Source of the DNA: Pseudidiomarina aestuarii | GTDB taxonomy: Bacteria; Pseudomonadota; Gammaproteobacteria; Enterobacterales; Alteromonadaceae | DNA: 64,000 nt | Assembly (NCBI RefSeq): GCF_003987355.1 | Contig: NZ_PIPR01000003.1 | Coordinates: 1 to 64,000 of the forward strand | Direction: 5' to 3' | Part shown: piece after piece, positions 32,963 to 40,086 of the stretch | Position numbering within the stretch: the first letter of the stretch is position 1 | Layout of the letters: each line of letters starts with the position of its first letter | The notes under the pieces: generated by a model | Databases searched by the model: none | Told to the model about the DNA's origin: nothing | The model's input: the letters and a program-made list of their open reading frames with translations, nothing else | Position numbers and translations under genes: made by a program

Positions 32963-34258
32963 ATGACTCATCAGCATATTGTTGTGGTTGGGGGTGGCGC
33001 TGGCGGTCTAGAGTTAGTTACGCGCCTCGGTAAACACTATCGAAAGGACTCTCAGGTTCGGGTGACTCTAGTCGATAGAAACCTAACTCATGTCTGGAAA
33101 CCCTTGTTGCATGAGGTCGCTGCTGGTGCTTTAGATGCTGATCTTGATGGTGTTGATTATCGGGTACAAGCGGCAGTAGCAGGGTTTCATTTTCAGCCTG
33201 GCGAACTCACGGCTGTCGACCGTGCGCAACAGCGTATTACCTTAGCACCCATCTGCAATGACCAAGGCGAAGCGGTCGTTGCGAGTCGGACCATCGAGTA
33301 CACTAAGCTCGTGCTGGCGGTAGGTTCAGTCACCAATGACTTTGGTACCGAAGGCGCTGCTGAGCATTGCTATTTCCTCGATAGCGTCAAACAGGCGACT
33401 CGCTTCCATCACACCCTGATGAATACCTTTCTCTCGTTGCAGTCACAGCGATACCCACAGCCCCTGCAAGTCGCGATTGTGGGCGGTGGTGCCACCGGTG
33501 TTGAGCTCGCCGCTGAATTGCACAAATCTGCGGAATTGATCCGTGCTTATGGATTTGAAGATTTTGAGCTCACACAATTGCAAATCACCTTGATTGAAGC
33601 CGGACCGAGAATTTTGCCCGCGTTACCAGAGCGCCTCGCTTTGGCGGCGCAGCATGAACTCGAGCAATTAGGCGTGAAGGTATTAGTCGATACCGCGGTC
33701 ACTCGAGTCACGGCGCAAGCTTTTGAGACTAAATCTGGAACCAGTATCACCGCGCCCCTCAAAATCTGGGCAGCCGGTGTTAAAGCGCCAAACTTCCTCA
33801 GTGCTATTGAGGGACTTGAATTCAATCGCGCCAATCAAGTGGTCGTGCGGGAAACGCTGCAAGCTAGCACTGACGACAATTTGTATGTAATTGGCGATTG
33901 TGCGGCATTTACTCAGCCGGATGGGAGTCGTGTACCGCCGCGGGCGCAATCGGCGCATCAAATGGCAACCGTCTGTGGTCGCAATATCATTCGTCAGTTA
34001 AGTGGTAAGAAGCTACAACCTTTTGTTTACCGCGATCGCGGCTCGTTGGTGTCACTGAGCAGCTACTCTGCAGTCGGCAGTCTGATGGGGAATTTAACGC
34101 GTGGTGCCATGATGGTCGAAGGCTGGCTGGCCCGCATCATGTACAAGTCACTGTATCGCATGCATCAAGTTGCCGTGCATGGCTACTTTAAAACATTTCT
34201 TTTTATGCTCGTGCAAGGCATCAACCGTCGCCTGCGACCAAAACTGAAACTTCATTAA
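32963..34258 (+). CDS. ndh: Type II NADH dehydrogenase (NDH-2)
   Basis: This 431-residue flavoprotein passes electrons from NADH to quinone without pumping ions. It has two Rossmann dinucleotide folds: IVVVGGGAGGLELVTRLG at the start (FAD) and VAIVGGGATGVELAAELH mid-chain (NADH). A third FAD-binding block follows, DNLYVIGDCAAF. The C-terminal amphipathic helix region anchors it to the membrane. Its 3' end overlaps the convergent response regulator gene by four bases. Confidence 0.92.
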   Translation: MTHQHIVVVGGGAGGLELVTRLGKHYRKDSQVRVTLVDRNLTHVWKPLLHEVAAGALDADLDGVDYRVQAAVAGFHFQPGELTAVDRAQQRITLAPICNDQGEAVVASRTIEYTKLVLAVGSVTNDFGTEGAAEHCYFLDSVKQATRFHHTLMNTFLSLQSQRYPQPLQVAIVGGGATGVELAAELHKSAELIRAYGFEDFELTQLQITLIEAGPRILPALPERLALAAQHELEQLGVKVLVDTAVTRVTAQAFETKSGTSITAPLKIWAAGVKAPNFLSAIEGLEFNRANQVVVRETLQASTDDNLYVIGDCAAFTQPDGSRVPPRAQSAHQMATVCGRNIIRQLSGKKLQPFVYRDRGSLVSLSSYSAVGSLMGNLTRGAMMVEGWLARIMYKSLYRMHQVAVHGYFKTFLFMLVQGINRRLRPKLKLH

Positions 34259-34899
34259 ATCAAGCCGGATTCGATGGCTTTGATAACGGCTCGGGTACGG
34301 TCGCGTACCCCGAGCTTGGCTAAAATCGTTGAGACTTGATTCTTCACCGTGCCTTCAGATTTGAACAGGGCTTCCGCGATTTCACGATTGCTACAGCCCG
34401 CGGCGAGCAAGCGTAAGATTTCAATTTCTTTGCTACTTAGCGGCTCCACTAGCGGTTCGTCCTGATGTTGCCCTCGCAGACCTTGCAAGCCGGATAGAAT
34501 TCGTTCTGTAACAGTTGGATGGATCAAAGTTTCGCCGTTCGCAACGGCTAAAATGCCGTTGATCAGAATATCAAGCGAAACATCTTTCAGTAAGTAGCCT
34601 TTGGCGCCTGCTTCAAGCGCTTTGAGAATGAGTTGGTGGTCATCAAAGGTGGTCAGCATGATCACCGGACATTTGAATCCCTGTTGTTTCATTGCTTCAA
34701 CCGTAGCAATGCCGTCACGACCCGGCATGCGGATATCCATCAATACGACATCAGGCTGGCAGGTTGCCATTGCCGTCAGTGCCGCATCACCACTCGCTGC
34801 TTCGCCGATAACTTGCACCCGGTCATCCAACTGCAACAAACTAATAATACCTTGCCGAACCAGGTTCTGGTCATCTACCACCAACACGCTAACGGTCAT
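34255..34899 (-). CDS. NarL/DesR-type response regulator
   Basis: This 214-residue regulator has a receiver domain with phosphoacceptor Asp55 (VVLMDIRMPG) and Asp9-Asp10, and a C-terminal LuxR-type helix-turn-helix (LSSKEIEILRLLAAGCSNREIAEAL). Its start overlaps the stop of the histidine kinase gene (ATGA, four bases), so it is the cognate partner. The DesR-like arrangement suggests control of membrane-related genes. The 34-base inverted repeat at 36076-36109 is a plausible target. Confidence 0.9.
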   Translation of the reverse strand: MTVSVLVVDDQNLVRQGIISLLQLDDRVQVIGEAASGDAALTAMATCQPDVVLMDIRMPGRDGIATVEAMKQQGFKCPVIMLTTFDDHQLILKALEAGAKGYLLKDVSLDILINGILAVANGETLIHPTVTERILSGLQGLRGQHQDEPLVEPLSSKEIEILRLLAAGCSNREIAEALFKSEGTVKNQVSTILAKLGVRDRTRAVIKAIESGLI

Positions 34900-36038
34900 G
34901 AGTCGATCCTCGCTTGCGCTTGAATGCGAACAAAGCCGCCTTGAGTATTAATCTGACAATTGCCTCCAAGAGCATGCCAACGCTCGCACATACCGGTTAA
35001 GCCGTTCCCGTGAGTAAGGGTGGCGTCGGCTTTGCCATTATCAGCGATATCTAACAACACTAAACCTTGGTCTTGTTGCAGGGTGATAGTCATCTGCGTG
35101 GCGTAACTGTGCTTCAGCGTATTCGTTATGGCTTCTTGAGCTGTTCGCAGCACCGCCTCAGCAAGGCGTAGGTCGGTGACTTGAATGGGCTCATCACAAA
35201 CCACGTGCACTTGTACTGGAGTGACCGTGGTCGCGAGCTGTTGCAGTGACTCACAGAGCTTTAAATGGCCAGAGTCACGCATTTCCGAGACGGCCTCGCG
35301 AACATCGGCAAGTAGCAACTTCGCGATAGCATGACAGCGCTCAACCTGCTCACGCGCTTCGCCAGTGGTTTTGTGGCTGGCAATTTGCAGATTGATAGTC
35401 AGTGCGGTCAAGTGATGGCCGAGTAGGTCATGAATATTGCGAGAAATCCGCAGCCGTTCATCTTGTTTGCTTGCAGCCGCCAGTAACGCCTGGGTTGACC
35501 GTAACTCACGGTTAACGGCTTCAACTTCAGTGCGCGCTTTACGTTCGGTTAGTTGGGCCTGCATGGTCATCATGGCGAATAAATTAAAGGTCCAGAACAG
35601 TACAGCAGTCAGCAAACTACCAGACGCGTCCCAGTAGTAGCCGTAAATCAACCATAGTGGAATCGTCCACACAACCGATAGAGCGACAGCCCGATTAAAG
35701 GGCATGAAATAAGGAATTTGCGCGGACCAAATAACCGCGTAAATCGCGACGTAGTTAAAGGGCACAAGAAAATAACAGGCAATAATAATGCCGTACTGAC
35801 CAAGCACGGCCCACACGCGTTGACGCACAGTTCGGGTTGGATGGTCATCGGTAGTGGCATATTCAAACAACCCAAAAAACAGCAGCATCAGCGCAGCGGT
35901 GCCGACCACATGCAACCAACCAAACCCTTTGATGGCAAGCAACCAACAGGCGCTCGCGCTCACCAACAGCCAAGTAATAAGAGCCGCAAAGCGATCGAGT
36001 CCGAAGTATTGATGAAACTTTTGAAGCCATGTTTTCAT
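34896..36038 (-). CDS. DesK-type membrane sensor histidine kinase
   Basis: This protein of 380 residues has about five membrane helices in the first 150 residues and no large periplasmic loop. A coiled linker is followed by a HisKA_3 dimerisation domain with His203 (SRNIHDLLGHHLTALTINL) and a short HATPase domain (DNGKADATLTHGNGLTG). This is the layout of DesK, the membrane-thickness and temperature sensor of Bacillus, and of related LiaS/YxjM kinases. The start MKTWLQKFHQ was chosen over an upstream Met because the upstream residues are not membrane-like or conserved. Confidence 0.87.
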   Translation of the reverse strand: MKTWLQKFHQYFGLDRFAALITWLLVSASACWLLAIKGFGWLHVVGTAALMLLFFGLFEYATTDDHPTRTVRQRVWAVLGQYGIIIACYFLVPFNYVAIYAVIWSAQIPYFMPFNRAVALSVVWTIPLWLIYGYYWDASGSLLTAVLFWTFNLFAMMTMQAQLTERKARTEVEAVNRELRSTQALLAAASKQDERLRISRNIHDLLGHHLTALTINLQIASHKTTGEAREQVERCHAIAKLLLADVREAVSEMRDSGHLKLCESLQQLATTVTPVQVHVVCDEPIQVTDLRLAEAVLRTAQEAITNTLKHSYATQMTITLQQDQGLVLLDIADNGKADATLTHGNGLTGMCERWHALGGNCQINTQGGFVRIQAQARIDS

Positions 36039-36075
36039 GTCAGCAGTATTGCATGTTGGAGTTCCGAGGCAATAG

Positions 36076-36109
36076 GCCAAAAGTCATTTTTCACGTTGTG
36101 ACTTGTGGC
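36076..36109. promoter_or_regulatory. 34-bp inverted repeat, candidate response-regulator site
   Basis: GCCAAAAGTCA (36076-36086) and TGACTTGTGGC (36099-36109) match as an inverted repeat at 10 of 11 positions, with a 12-base gap. It lies between the kinase gene and the divergent seven-helix membrane protein gene, so a phosphorylated dimer could control both. Confidence 0.55.
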
Positions 36110-36174
36110 ACTGCACGAAGCCCTCACGCACGCCTAAAGTGGATCCTAGCTAATTAGGGCTGAGGAGGCTCACT

Positions 36175-36927
36175 ATGGTCATGTTACATCAATCACTTTT
36201 TTGGCTGCACATTGTCTTTGGCACCATGGCACTGATTTTGTTTTGGGTTCCAGTATTGACTCGAAAAGGTGGACTTAACCACGTTCGCTTTGGTCGCTAT
36301 TATTCATGGGTTATGTATACCGTGTCTTACTCGGCCATTATTATGGCGCTGATGGTTCTGGTGAACCCCGAGGCCGTAAAGCCGGGTATGCTCACCAATG
36401 CGACAAATCCCGAGCAAGTACTGTTGTTCGTGCGCAACTTTTGGGCGTTGTTACTCTTCCTGGGTGTGTTGGTATTGACGGGTATTTGGTATGGCAATCT
36501 TGTGATGCAGTGTAAGGCTGACCGTGAGCCTTTGCGTACCTGGTATCATTTGGCACTGCACCTCAGTCTTTTTATCGGCAGTCTTTGGTTGCTGTACATC
36601 TACTTCTTCAATCAAGGCATCATTCTCCATCTGATATTTGGTGGCTTGGGCGCGGTGAGCGTAGTGCAAACCTTTCGCTATATATTTGCTGAAGAGGTGA
36701 CTCTGGCTGCAGTGTGGAAAGAGCATATGGGAGCGATGGTTGGAACCGGGATCGGTGCTTATACAGCCTTCCTGACTTTCGGTACGCGTCGCATATTCAG
36801 TGAAATGGGTGATTGGCAATGGTTGTTCTGGATCATCCCTGGAATCGTTGGTGCAACGGCAATTACGCTGCTTTCGAAACAATATGAAACGAAATTTAAG
36901 GGTAAAATGGCGCCAAAATCACGATAA
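36175..36927 (+). CDS. Seven-helix membrane protein next to the DesK/DesR-like system
   Basis: I do not recognise this 250-residue protein. It has seven predicted membrane helices (near residues 8-28, 43-63, 85-110, 122-145, 148-170, 184-204 and 214-234), with His and Trp residues in or near several (FWLHIVFG, WYHLALHLS, ILHLIFGG). Such His patterns can hold heme or metal, but no cytochrome motif is clear. It starts behind a strong GAGGAGG site and is divergent from the sensor kinase, with the inverted repeat between. It is a likely target of that system. Confidence 0.7.
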   Translation: MVMLHQSLFWLHIVFGTMALILFWVPVLTRKGGLNHVRFGRYYSWVMYTVSYSAIIMALMVLVNPEAVKPGMLTNATNPEQVLLFVRNFWALLLFLGVLVLTGIWYGNLVMQCKADREPLRTWYHLALHLSLFIGSLWLLYIYFFNQGIILHLIFGGLGAVSVVQTFRYIFAEEVTLAAVWKEHMGAMVGTGIGAYTAFLTFGTRRIFSEMGDWQWLFWIIPGIVGATAITLLSKQYETKFKGKMAPKSR

Positions 36928-37004: not shown

Positions 37005-37211
37005 ATGCGTCTAATCATTGCCTGTCTTGCTGCTGTAGTCGTGGTGGGGTGCTCACAAACCCCAACTGCGAGCATGAAACAACGCGTCGTTGATGAAAAT
37101 TACGTAGCTATGGTGGAAAATGCTGCGCAGAGCAATTCATCACGCGTGGAAGTGATCTGGATTAACCCACCTACTCAAGTTGTGGCTCAAACCGACAACA
37201 TGAAGCCCTAG
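37005..37211 (+). CDS. Small lipoprotein
   Basis: This is a 68-residue protein with a lipoprotein signal peptide ending in VVVVGC (Cys18). The perfect ribosome site AAGGAGGT fixes the start. The mature 50 residues end with VIWINPPTQVVAQTDNMKP; there is no known domain. It is a monocistronic gene ending at a short hairpin. Confidence 0.7.
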   Translation: MRLIIACLAAVVVVGCSQTPTASMKQRVVDENYVAMVENAAQSNSSRVEVIWINPPTQVVAQTDNMKP

Positions 37212-37241: not shown

Positions 37242-37739
37242 CTATTCCTGTTGAAACCGAGCTTCAATAGCTTGGTGGAGTTGCTTTTTCCCACCCAGCA
37301 TAAATATCACTTCAGCAACAACAAATAATGGACCAATGGCTAAACCCATAATGTCGTCTACGAATGCGGGTTTTTTTCCTTCAAAGTAGTGGCCAATAAA
37401 TTGAAACACCCAGCCCACTACAAACATTCCAATCCCTGCCGTTAGCCAGGCCGCGGTGCCGAGTTCGGCGATGCTGGCGCCAAACCAGACTGCTAAACCG
37501 AGCAATACTGTCATCAAAATGCCCAAAGCGACATCTAAATAAAGATAAAATAAAGCAGCGGCAATGCTCACAAGAATGGCCGGTGATAAGGCTATGTCCG
37601 CAATCATAAAGCTGGGCCGAGCAAGCAGTGTTTCTATACCTAACACTATTAATGGAATGCCAAATAAATGCGTGATGATATTGCGTTGATCTCTATGATA
37701 CGCGGCGTATCCAGCCAGATGATCTGTTATTGTTTTCAT
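37242..37739 (-). CDS. Mpo1-like (DUF962) membrane protein
   Basis: This 165-residue protein has four hydrophobic helices and belongs to the DUF962/Mpo1 family. The diagnostic His residues are present in YAAYHRDQRNIITHLFGIP near the N-terminus and FQFIGHYFEGKKPAF in the second half. Yeast Mpo1 is an iron-dependent dioxygenase that removes one carbon from 2-hydroxy fatty acids; the bacterial proteins are unstudied. The gene lies near cfa and the DesK-like system, in a region rich in membrane-lipid functions. Confidence 0.85.
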   Translation of the reverse strand: MKTITDHLAGYAAYHRDQRNIITHLFGIPLIVLGIETLLARPSFMIADIALSPAILVSIAAALFYLYLDVALGILMTVLLGLAVWFGASIAELGTAAWLTAGIGMFVVGWVFQFIGHYFEGKKPAFVDDIMGLAIGPLFVVAEVIFMLGGKKQLHQAIEARFQQE

Positions 37740-37805
37740 TGTTGCTCACCTCTCATGAAGCTGTCAGTATAAAAACATTATCACAACGTACAGGGATTGC
37801 TAGCT

Positions 37806-38849
37806 ATGCGTGAACAATTGGAACGCCGCGCATTTTTACTTTTACTCGCCGCCGTCACCATTGCTTTTGGATTTATATTAGAGCCGTTCTGGGGAGCTAT
37901 TTTTTGGGCTTGCGCCGTTGCTGTTATTTTTGCTCCGTTACAAGCACTGCTGATGCGAAAGATTGGCGATAAGCCGAATACGGTGGCACTACTCACCTTA
38001 ATGATTTGCATGACTATTGTCGTCATTCCAGTCATCTTTCTGTCGGTTGCATTTGTGCAGGAGGGGGTGCAATTTTATCAGCGTTTGAATTCTGGCGAGA
38101 TCGATCCGAAGCAAATTCTGACCCAACTCCGTGATGCATTCCCGCTATTTGATCGTGCGCTTATTGAGCTAGGAATCGATACCGAGGGGCTGCGTGACCG
38201 CATTGCGAGTGCGGCCCTAGAGGTCAGCCGTTTCTTGGCTCGTGAGACTTTCACTATTGGTCAGAGTACCTTTAGCTTTTTGATTAGCCTCGCGTTAATG
38301 ATGTATTTGGCGTTTTTCCTGCTCCGCGATGGCTCAAAGTTAGTCAAACTAATGATTCGTGCGTTGCCACTCGGGGATGAACGCGAACATGCACTCTTCC
38401 AAAAATTTGCTGAGGTGACCCGCGCCACGGTAAAGGGGAACCTCGTGGTTGCTTTGGTACAGGGTGCCTTGGGTGGATTTATCTTCTGGATCCTCGATAT
38501 TCCAGGACCGCTGTTATGGGGCGTCGTGATGGCATTCTTGTCGTTGATCCCTGCCGTTGGCGCGGCGATTATCTGGTTTCCTGTTGGTCTTTATTTATAC
38601 GCCACAGGCGATTGGATCAGTGCGACAGTGTTGATGGCCTATGGGGCAATAGTGATTGGATTAGCGGACAACGTATTACGTCCTATATTGGTCGGACGTG
38701 ACACCAAGTTACCCGACTATGTCGTGTTATTTTCAACCATCGGCGGTATTGCGCTATTCGGTATTAATGGCTTTGTCATTGGTCCGCTGGTGGCCGCATT
38801 GTTTATGGCGACGTGGCAGATTTTCATGACCGAGTTCAATGCCGAGTAA
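37806..38849 (+). CDS. AI-2E family transporter
   Basis: This protein of 347 residues has about eight membrane helices and the AI-2 exporter superfamily (TqsA/PerM) pattern: a helix pair at the start, a long soluble segment (FVQEGVQFYQRLNSGEIDPKQ), and the C-terminal repeats LIPAVGAAIIWFPVGLYL and DNVLRPILVGRDTKLPD. The family exports autoinducer-2 or acts as an ion-coupled exchanger. The start is the ATG behind CAGGGA; a TTG nine bases upstream is less likely. Confidence 0.87.
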   Translation: MREQLERRAFLLLLAAVTIAFGFILEPFWGAIFWACAVAVIFAPLQALLMRKIGDKPNTVALLTLMICMTIVVIPVIFLSVAFVQEGVQFYQRLNSGEIDPKQILTQLRDAFPLFDRALIELGIDTEGLRDRIASAALEVSRFLARETFTIGQSTFSFLISLALMMYLAFFLLRDGSKLVKLMIRALPLGDEREHALFQKFAEVTRATVKGNLVVALVQGALGGFIFWILDIPGPLLWGVVMAFLSLIPAVGAAIIWFPVGLYLYATGDWISATVLMAYGAIVIGLADNVLRPILVGRDTKLPDYVVLFSTIGGIALFGINGFVIGPLVAALFMATWQIFMTEFNAE

Positions 38850-38860
38850 GCACTGCTAGA

Positions 38861-40006
38861 TTAGAGCGCCTGTGCATCAGCAGCATCGCTGCTGAGCACG
38901 GGACGCTGATAGCCGCCACTGACGCCATGATGGCTAAATACCCATTGCCAAACCTGCAAGTCTCGCGCTCGAAACGCCCCAGCGCAGCTTAATAAGTAAT
39001 AGCGCCACATGCGCACAAAAGTGTCCCCCTTATCGGCTCGTATTTCATCCTCATGCTGAGCGAAATTGTGATACCACGCCATTAATGTCGGGTCATAATC
39101 GGCGCCAAAATTGTGAATATCCTCAGCGCAAAAGAGGTCGCGTGAGGCCTCGTCAATATGCGCCAAGCAGGGCAACTCGCCGTTGGGAAAGATATACTTG
39201 GTAATCCATGGGTCGGTGCCTTTGCGGTCCCTATTACGGCCGATCGTGTGCATTAAAAAGAGTCCGTTGGGCGCCAAGCAGCGCTTCGCAGCTTGCATAT
39301 AGGTTCGATAATTGCGTTGCCCCACATGCTCGAACATACCCAGACTGACTATGGCATCAAATGATTCATTCAACTCCCGATAATCTTGCAGGCGAAACTC
39401 AATGGGGAGTCCTTGGCAGCGCTGGCGCCCGAGCTCAGTTTGCTCCTTTGATACGGTAATGCCGACACATTCAACGCCGTAACGCTCGGCGGCGTACTGC
39501 ATAAACGATCCCCAACCGCAGCCGATATCGAGAACACGCATACCGGGTTGTAGCTGTAGTTTTTGGCAAACCAATTCAAGTTTATGTTCTTGTGCTTGTT
39601 CCAGTGAATGCGCGTGATGCCAATAGCCGCAGGTGTAAACCATTCTTGAGTCAAGCATGGCTTGGTAAAGTGGGTTGCCGATATCGTAGTGTCGTTGTCC
39701 GACTTCAAAAGCACGGCTTTTGCTTTGCAGATTAAAGAGGCGACTCTTGAGGTGATGCCAGAGCAATCGTGACGGGCGAATTTGTTCATGTAACTTGGCT
39801 CTGATGAGCCGATGAAACAATTCATCCAGTTGGGTGCAATCCCAAGCACCCGCCATGTAGCTTTCGCCAAGTCCTAAATTCCCGCGGGCGAGAATATCGG
39901 TAAACATCGACTCATCATGCACCTGAAGGTCCCAGGGGCGAGATCCGTTGATGGCGATATCTGCTTGTTCCAAGAGTTCGGTAACGAACGTTCTGGAGTT
40001 AGTCAT
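38861..40006 (-). CDS. cfa: Cyclopropane-fatty-acyl-phospholipid synthase
   Basis: Cfa adds a methylene from S-adenosylmethionine to double bonds of membrane phospholipid acyl chains. The 381-residue protein (E. coli 382) has an N-terminal lipid-binding domain and a methyltransferase domain with motif I at residues 158-166 (VLDIGCGWG), SLGMFEHVGQRNY, and HTIGRNRD with WITKYIFPNGELP. A GGAGGG ribosome site lies before the start, favouring it over a Met five codons upstream. Its 3' end faces the AI-2E gene, 11 bases away. Confidence 0.93.
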   Translation of the reverse strand: MTNSRTFVTELLEQADIAINGSRPWDLQVHDESMFTDILARGNLGLGESYMAGAWDCTQLDELFHRLIRAKLHEQIRPSRLLWHHLKSRLFNLQSKSRAFEVGQRHYDIGNPLYQAMLDSRMVYTCGYWHHAHSLEQAQEHKLELVCQKLQLQPGMRVLDIGCGWGSFMQYAAERYGVECVGITVSKEQTELGRQRCQGLPIEFRLQDYRELNESFDAIVSLGMFEHVGQRNYRTYMQAAKRCLAPNGLFLMHTIGRNRDRKGTDPWITKYIFPNGELPCLAHIDEASRDLFCAEDIHNFGADYDPTLMAWYHNFAQHEDEIRADKGDTFVRMWRYYLLSCAGAFRARDLQVWQWVFSHHGVSGGYQRPVLSSDAADAQAL

Positions 40007-40086
40007 GAATCCCTCCGACACAGAACACCTTCCGACTCATTGTAGTCGAAATCAGTGATATTTCCTGTGTCGGAGAGCGGTGTCCG

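Follow-up and report, generated by a model that had tools for sequence, protein, structure and literature searches.

The window analyzed here, 64,000 nucleotides of Pseudidiomarina aestuarii DNA (contig NZ_PIPR01000003.1, positions 1 to 64,000 of the forward strand), carries the genes of a sensor histidine kinase and a response regulator on one strand and, facing away from them on the other, a gene for a membrane protein with seven helices; an inverted repeat of 34 bases lies between the two units. We consider it rather probable that these elements form a dedicated circuit, in which a DesK-type sensor and a regulator predicted to bind the repeat serve two divergent promoters without a -35 element, and in which the seven-helix protein is the main output.

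The three-gene module and its intergenic repeat in relatives

Among 147 genomes of the family, homologues of the seven-helix protein were found in 60 and the kinase (E up to 1e-25) in 74; an initial contig scan using the single seven-helix protein as query had returned no relative. The initial annotation of this DNA proposed the three-gene layout, and its coordinates, its strands and the overlap of the regulator and kinase genes (4 bases) were borne out. It also suggested looking for homologues of the seven-helix protein next to similar kinases, and this search was productive: at 57 of the 61 loci inspected (the 60 plus the window) a kinase lies on the opposite strand, facing away, within 300 bases in 56 and at 1,030 bases in L081. 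Of the remaining four, L118 and L119 are fragment copies, and L090 and L113 have no kinase. A second set of 80 named loci, kept from 190 relatives and sharing genomes with the first, spans Idiomarina, Pseudidiomarina, Alteromonas, Glaciecola, Bowmanella, Colwellia, Pseudoalteromonas and Pseudohongiella; here the kinase is on the opposite strand in 71 and within 300 bases in 69. Outside the family the seven-helix gene is seldom found: a search of 369 genomes of the class gave matches in 9 at E up to 1e-15, and 3 of these belong to the family. The window genome, G026 and G131 represent one genus. By these sequence comparisons, the three-gene module is conserved.

The repeat in the window, GCCAAAAGTCA-N12-TGACTTGTGGC, has arms that agree at 10 of 11 positions across a gap of 12 bases, as first annotated. 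Among 2000 dinucleotide-shuffled versions of the intergenic region, 19 contained an equally good repeat, and the whole window holds 48 repeats of equal quality (overlapping registers counted) versus 9-17 in six shuffles. Within the window sequence alone, the repeat is mildly unusual, so the case for it rests on relatives. From both locus sets, excluding the fragments L118 and L119 and trimming L081 and L208 to their last 250 bases, we obtained 139 regions upstream of the seven-helix gene, which were reduced to 108 by merging those identical over the whole region or over the last 70 bases; sister-species copies remain among them. As a control, the consensus used for scoring, AATAGGCCAAAAGTCA-N-TGACTTTTGGCACT, which was derived from the same regions, was applied equally to their shuffles. 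The best of 540 shuffled controls was outscored by 101 of the 108 distinct regions, and this conservation rules out chance as the origin of the repeat. Across these 101 regions, the gap between the arms is 12 bases in 79 and 13 in 18, and the last five of the six columns of the AATAGG extension of the kinase-side arm are 95-100% constant. The repeat also occurs in metagenome-assembled genomes of Pseudohongiella, outside the family.

Absence of the repeat from relatives with the same gene order had been named as the observation that would speak against it. Where the kinase is on the opposite strand, the repeat is present in 95 of 97 distinct loci, and at the other two its position is taken by a different dyad. 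The 95 include L167 from Paraglaciecola sp. MB-3u-78 (L167/L241/L238), where an inserted element splits the kinase gene and the operator is intact. Seven upstream regions scored below the controls. At L113 just the right arm is present, matching at 14 of 14 letters; L094 and L116 carry the different dyad, with TGACA-type arms, and L090, L202, L211 and L219 have nothing resembling the repeat upstream of the seven-helix gene. The L090 region contains a perfect palindrome, GAAAGTGACTTAAGTCACTTTC, instead of the operator. Because arms persist singly or with changed spacing, a role of the repeat as a hairpin only is not supported.

The second set includes ten loci with no intact kinase beside the seven-helix gene, which constitute natural experiments. 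Seven of them keep the repeat (L157, L161, L183, L195, L199, L232 and L167) and three are without it (L202, L211, L219). When the ten genomes were searched with a profile, the kinase turned up elsewhere in six (E 1.7e-103 or better) and in split form in one. The same profile search gave no kinase match at E up to 1e-30 in two of the three repeat-less genomes; the third, G154, has a partial kinase match (2.6e-31) beside a regulator that carries A and R in its recognition helix (see below). At L232 the regulator still adjoins the seven-helix gene despite the kinase being elsewhere, and in G076 (L090), of the first set, kinase and repeat are both missing. At L219 a transposase-like frame, as read from the letters, has its end just before the seven-helix gene.

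Predicted mirrored promoters flanking the repeat

We examined the sequence on either side of the repeat for promoter elements, taking the T of TGAC at the inner end of each arm as the origin for offsets. Of 101 regions, 87 have TANNNT at +36 from the right arm, compared with at most 4 at any other offset between 14 and 45. The columns between the right arm and this -10 box carry almost no information, indicating that there is no conserved -35 element. On the kinase side, 65 loci have xANNNT at +37 and 20 have it at +36, together 85 of 94 (L081, with its distant kinase, is included in the 94 for promoter and start counts), versus at most 26 of 94 at other adjacent offset pairs from 8 to 69. The usual boxes there are CATACT, CATAAT and AATACT.

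In 37 of 94 loci, the window among them, the start codon of the kinase is located between +47 and +50, and a Shine-Dalgarno-like sequence accompanies one of these 37 starts; such a sequence precedes 82 of 94 starts of the seven-helix gene, again including the window. Kinase starts were picked by a script biased toward the start used in the window, and only 14 of the 57 remaining kinase starts have a Shine-Dalgarno-like sequence, so many are probably misplaced and the leaderless count is approximate. In the window, the predicted transcription start of the kinase lies at or beside its ATG. Since the start codon coincides with the expected transcription start and lacks a Shine-Dalgarno-like sequence, the kinase mRNA is probably leaderless. 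An alternative kinase start is the upstream TTG at 36080, where a longer open frame begins.

The arms can also be followed at nine kinase loci without a seven-helix neighbor. Six of these (L034, L045, L233, L234, L235 and L236) keep one arm, with a -10-like box at +36 to +38, and no arm was found at L055, L237 and L239. Each arm together with its -10 box therefore appears able to stand as a unit, and the seven-helix gene usually keeps both arms. The initial annotation viewed the repeat as a site for a dimer. Comparison upholds it as a predicted regulator site, and because one arm persists at these six loci we recast its architecture as two mirrored half-promoters.

Sensor kinase, regulator and operator specificity

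The assignment of a DesK-type core to the kinase, made from the letters of the window, was supported by each search. The protein matches HisKA_3 in Pfam (5.5e-13), a profile search against solved structures gave DesK as the best match (2.3e-29) with VraS among the nearest, and a fold search with the kinase model placed the DesK core on top (E 5.4e-8). Alignment A2 comprises 39 of the 57 kinases. Where the initial description gave the sensor five helices, the model (mean predicted local distance difference test score, pLDDT, 88.2) has six membrane-type helices (2-36, 41-62, 71-91, 95-110, 114-135 and 141 onwards), one of them (95-110) of 16 residues only. As modeled, the sensor consists of membrane-type helices only and has no soluble sensor domain. 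The DesK sensor is described as five membrane helices without an extracytoplasmic domain (PMC8301901).

The regulator matches Response_reg (4.9e-28) and GerE (4.5e-16) in Pfam, and its nearest solved structures are VraR (8.1e-41), DesR 4ldz (9.9e-35), ChrA, DevR and NarL. In the window its sequence includes FKSEGTVKNQVS, which we take to be the recognition helix. All 55 operator-positive regulators of the first set read [KR]-S-x-G-T-x-K-N in this helix; in the regulators of L094 and L116, the two loci with the diverged dyad, A and R replace S and K. Over both sets, counting only helices of the form [KRN][SA]xGTx[KR]N..S, which made 89 of 108 loci readable, S and K are present in 87 of 87 operator-positive loci and A and R in both diverged ones. 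The diverged dyads have arm spacings of 11 and 13 and, beside the right arm, retain the -10 box at +36; beside the left arm, a -10-like box is present in L116, at +37, and absent from L094 at 36-37. Operator and regulator thus appear to covary, in a small sample, and comparison among relatives as a whole strongly supports the repeat as the predicted binding site of the regulator.

The seven-helix protein

The AlphaFold2 model of the membrane protein (mean pLDDT 94.2) contains seven membrane-length helices, confirming the number read from the sequence. The histidines noted near its helices are in part invariant: across 57 aligned sequences, the window included, H12, G16, P26, K31, G32, H36 and G40 do not vary, nor do, among others, H184, T197, A198, G203, W219 and G226. 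The protein had been called unrecognized, and in Pfam and NCBIfam it has no match, with DUF2306 unlisted for the window protein up to E 10. Three of 23 relatives in the searched genomes match the DUF2306 family, PF10067, at 6.4e-6 to 7.0e-4, below its gathering cut-off (G028, G035 and G026 score 27.3, 24.1 and 20.5 bits versus 31.6). A profile comparison with 16 DUF2306 proteins (hhalign) gave E 4.8e-5 and a probability of 68%; in it H12 (helix 1), H36 (start of helix 2) and G40 align with the invariant H52, H79 and G83 of the DUF2306 proteins, and the third invariant DUF2306 histidine, H140 in the HRQW region, faces PLRTW, where there is no invariant histidine. We conclude that the description as unrecognized stands as far as the Pfam cut-off goes, and that profile comparison makes the protein a likely distant relative, not a member, of DUF2306.

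Structure searches yielded no clear counterpart of the protein among solved folds. The best Foldseek E values were 0.16 (PDB) and 0.06 (viral models), the best VIA-align Z score (8.3) was within the helical-bundle background, and a profile search of PDB sequences with the protein gave no match. For cytochrome b561-like heme binding the match is no more than middling and tied with others: 4o7g and 4o6y (Z 7.0 and 6.9, over residues 1-148) also fall within the helical-bundle background.

At two loci (L250:2331-3236 and L251:265-1167), the neighbor of a distant relative of the seven-helix protein is a LytTR-domain protein with a hydrophobic N-terminal half. A phmmer search for LytTR regulators near 30 DUF2306 loci and 11 loci of distant relatives matched at the loci of these two genomes only.

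Predicted operator sites elsewhere in the genomes

Under a strict pattern, 25 of 147 genomes contain exactly one operator site, which is always at this locus; allowing up to 3 mismatches, 61 of 147 genomes contain a match. The window genome has no second site within 3 mismatches, and its half-sites number 66 versus 66 for the reversed control, so a large regulon in this genome is unsupported.

From the longer match list we opened nine off-locus sites, chosen by low mismatch or by eye. On one side or both, TANNNT occurs at +36 in six of them; L261, L262 and L264 lack it. In G126 the site L256 precedes a TPR gene followed by an Rce1-like protease gene. L257 and L258, the same locus in related genomes, precede a DUF2141 gene and an RPE65-type (carotenoid oxygenase) gene. 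L259 precedes an alpha/beta hydrolase gene, L260 a paralogous kinase gene and L263 an HlyD-ABC-FtsX exporter operon. The initial annotation also proposed searching for the repeat at fatty-acid genes, and no such gene was seen beside the nine opened sites.

In 25 of 108 loci (for example, L095:3473-4393), the seven-helix gene is directly followed, on its own strand, by a gene for a TPR-like protein whose start resembles a signal peptide. The same TPR family has its own operator copy in G126 (L256), and in G041 it is found, with an Rce1-like protease, upstream of the kinase. No TPR gene follows the seven-helix gene in the window.

Features of the window locus

Table 1. Genes, operator arms and predicted promoter elements of the locus, in order of window position.
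Feature	Position	Strand	Description	Basis
Response regulator gene	34255-34899	-	Receiver plus LuxR/GerE helix-turn-helix, NarL/FixJ type	Pfam
Sensor histidine kinase gene, DesK-type core	34896-36038	-	Start ATG 36038	HisKA_3, profile comparison with solved structures, model
Predicted -10 box AATACT, kinase promoter	36045-36050	-	36 bases from its arm	
AATAGG, conserved extension of left (kinase) arm	36071-36076	+		Columns over 101 regions
Complete inverted repeat, predicted operator for regulator dimer	36076-36109	.		Found in 101/108 upstream regions
Left arm GCCAAAAGTCA	36076-36086	-	Half-site TGACTTTTGGC read kinase-ward	Sequence and conservation
Right arm, half-site TGACTTGTGGC	36099-36109	+	Read toward seven-helix gene, then conserved ACT	
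Predicted -10 box TAAAGT, seven-helix gene	36135-36140	+	36 bases from arm start; no conserved -35	
Shine-Dalgarno-like GAGGAGG, seven-helix gene	36162-36168	+		Read in sequence
Seven-helix membrane protein gene, 250 aa	36175-36927	+	Distant DUF2306 relative	

Directly 3' of the seven-helix gene, a small frame (37005-37208) encodes a lipoprotein-like peptide without a Pfam match. Near the module, 37242-40021 contains an Mpo1-like gene and a cyclopropane fatty acid synthase gene, neither of which is among the recurrent neighbor families of the module.

Discussion

In the circuit we propose, the DesK-type kinase would sense the state of the membrane or a compound within it and, as expected from its family, would phosphorylate the NarL/FixJ-type regulator encoded beside it. 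A regulator dimer would then bind the 34-base repeat, as comparison among relatives predicts. Because the two -10 boxes each lie 36-37 bases from their own arm, one bound dimer could recruit RNA polymerase in both directions, activating the seven-helix gene and probably the regulator's own kinase-regulator operon too. Least certain is the last step, in which the seven-helix protein might act on hydrophobic molecules of the membrane, as an enzyme or as an enzyme's helper, and close a feedback loop. We infer binding, activation, autoregulation, membrane sensing and the effector role from sequences and models. Together the data suggest that the main job of the sensor is switching on the seven-helix protein, and they agree, by comparison, with the initial view of its gene as the likely target; its alternative roles in that view, as a lipid-modifying enzyme or as a partner of the sensor, fare differently. 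The former is possible, and the latter is less likely, given that either gene can be found in the absence of its counterpart.

We were concerned that the seven-helix protein could instead be a co-sensor or inhibitor of the kinase, with the shared operator keeping the partners in proportion. Accessory membrane proteins of this sort exist in cell-envelope two-component systems, an example being LiaF with LiaS, and the tight pairing of the genes (57/61 loci), their common operator and the LytTR-domain regulator that adjoins distant relatives in two genomes fit such a role. However, three genomes have the seven-helix gene without a close kinase and without the operator, three family genomes have the kinase (8.0e-85 or better) without the gene, the partners are apart in the genome at six loci, and satellite operators precede enzyme genes and an exporter, so we regard a co-sensor as unlikely. 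Since each partner occurs alone and the satellite sites precede enzymes and an exporter, the protein is probably an effector and not an obligate co-sensor. That effector could also be a transporter or an immunity-type protein against a membrane-active compound, making the system a detoxification circuit. The rare satellite sites ahead of the HlyD-ABC-FtsX exporter operon and of the TPR and Rce1-like protease genes point this way, as do the ABC transporter genes that adjoin Gram-positive DesK/DesR relatives (PMC7726353). Given that the protein has no match in Pfam or NCBIfam and no clear counterpart among solved folds, and that satellite sites are few and scattered over different genomes, we consider detoxification doubtful, though worth keeping in view.

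The direction of control could also be the reverse, with the regulator repressing one or both genes from the repeat until a signal lifts repression. The dimer site would cover the -35 place of both promoters, where repressors too can act, and the kinase-side -10 box is poorly conserved in its first letter. Yet the seven-helix promoter has no conserved -35 element, as in activator-dependent promoters, and the fixed distance from arm to -10 box is kept in the diverged dyads, in the single-arm sites and in six of the nine satellite sites, which makes repression distinctly unlikely. Hardly credible is the idea that the repeat serves another, unlinked regulator and that the adjacent kinase-regulator pair is a coincidence. 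Seven regions without an intact adjacent kinase do retain the repeat (one with a split kinase), but the kinase gene, intact or split, is present in all seven genomes; in the three repeat-less genomes there is no kinase within E 1e-30 or only the partial match at 2.6e-31, and the recognition-helix residues change together with the dyad.

Several observations weigh against a dedicated, activator-driven circuit with the seven-helix protein as its main output. Some of the 108 upstream regions come from sister species and hence are not independent, and the two operator-diverged loci are a small sample that may share one ancestor. The kinase-side -10 box is weak, with the full TANNNT at +36 or +37 in just 14 of 94 loci, and the kinase side may be repressed. 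Intact arms lie 59, 32, 22 and 25 bases apart in L083, L086, L088 and L102, respectively, which is hard to reconcile with one rigid dimer, and the kinase loci without a seven-helix neighbor, with one arm at six of nine and none at three, indicate that a full dimer site is not always needed there. L113 has a perfect right arm, yet its genome, G064, has a distant kinase match only (2.2e-32). The kinases without a seven-helix gene (in G009, G041 and G043) mean that the seven-helix protein is not the sole possible output, and the satellite sites in relatives reveal other targets. Finally, the DUF2306 link is weak, with 20 of 23 relatives lacking a match, and the known function of DUF2306 stems from one fungal protein (PMC12895699).

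The closest described systems are DesK-DesR-des of Bacillus subtilis and its relatives YvfTU, BA5598/97 and SA1313/14 (PMC7726353, PMC3996569). They share with the window locus a DesK-nearest core, a target next to the pair and an inverted repeat in the target promoter; the overlap of the regulator and kinase genes and a NarL/FixJ-type regulator are likewise common to DesK/DesR and the window. The adjacent target in those systems is a desaturase or an ABC transporter, whereas here it is a seven-helix DUF2306-like protein, and for this reason we file the system as DesK-like and not as DesK/DesR. It differs further in its divergent target and kinase promoters, its one mirrored site, its six-helix sensor model and its Gram-negative marine hosts.

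VraS/VraR and LiaS/LiaR are cell-envelope stress systems that also pair HisKA_3-type kinases with NarL-type regulators, VraR being nearest to the regulator studied here; in contrast to them, no LiaF-like partner was recognized at this locus, and operator and target are different. DUF2306 proteins, including the fungal PraC of pramanicin biosynthesis, which is reportedly needed for an epoxidation (PMC12895699), share with the window family a multi-helix membrane architecture and the motif of helices 1-2 with its two histidines and glycine. The window family differs in scoring under the cut-off, in lacking the third DUF2306 histidine, in having its own H184 and in being under two-component control. 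We regard it as a long shot that this marine gammaproteobacterial DesK-type circuit has as its output a new class of DUF2306-related membrane enzyme that oxidizes or epoxidizes a membrane lipid or isoprenoid, with a single mirrored operator driving both -35-less promoters simultaneously and a leaderless kinase transcript arising from one of them.

In the open-licence literature, judged by titles and the openings of abstracts, we found no paper on this circuit. The locus would provide a complete, testable circuit around a membrane protein, comprising a sensor, a regulator, an exact operator, two promoters and a main target, and it would place a DesK-core system in Gram-negative marine bacteria. 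Its diverged relatives offer a natural set of operator-regulator pairs with altered specificity. The circuit may also open a route toward the function of DUF2306-like proteins, for which one experimental report, on PraC, was noted (PMC12895699).

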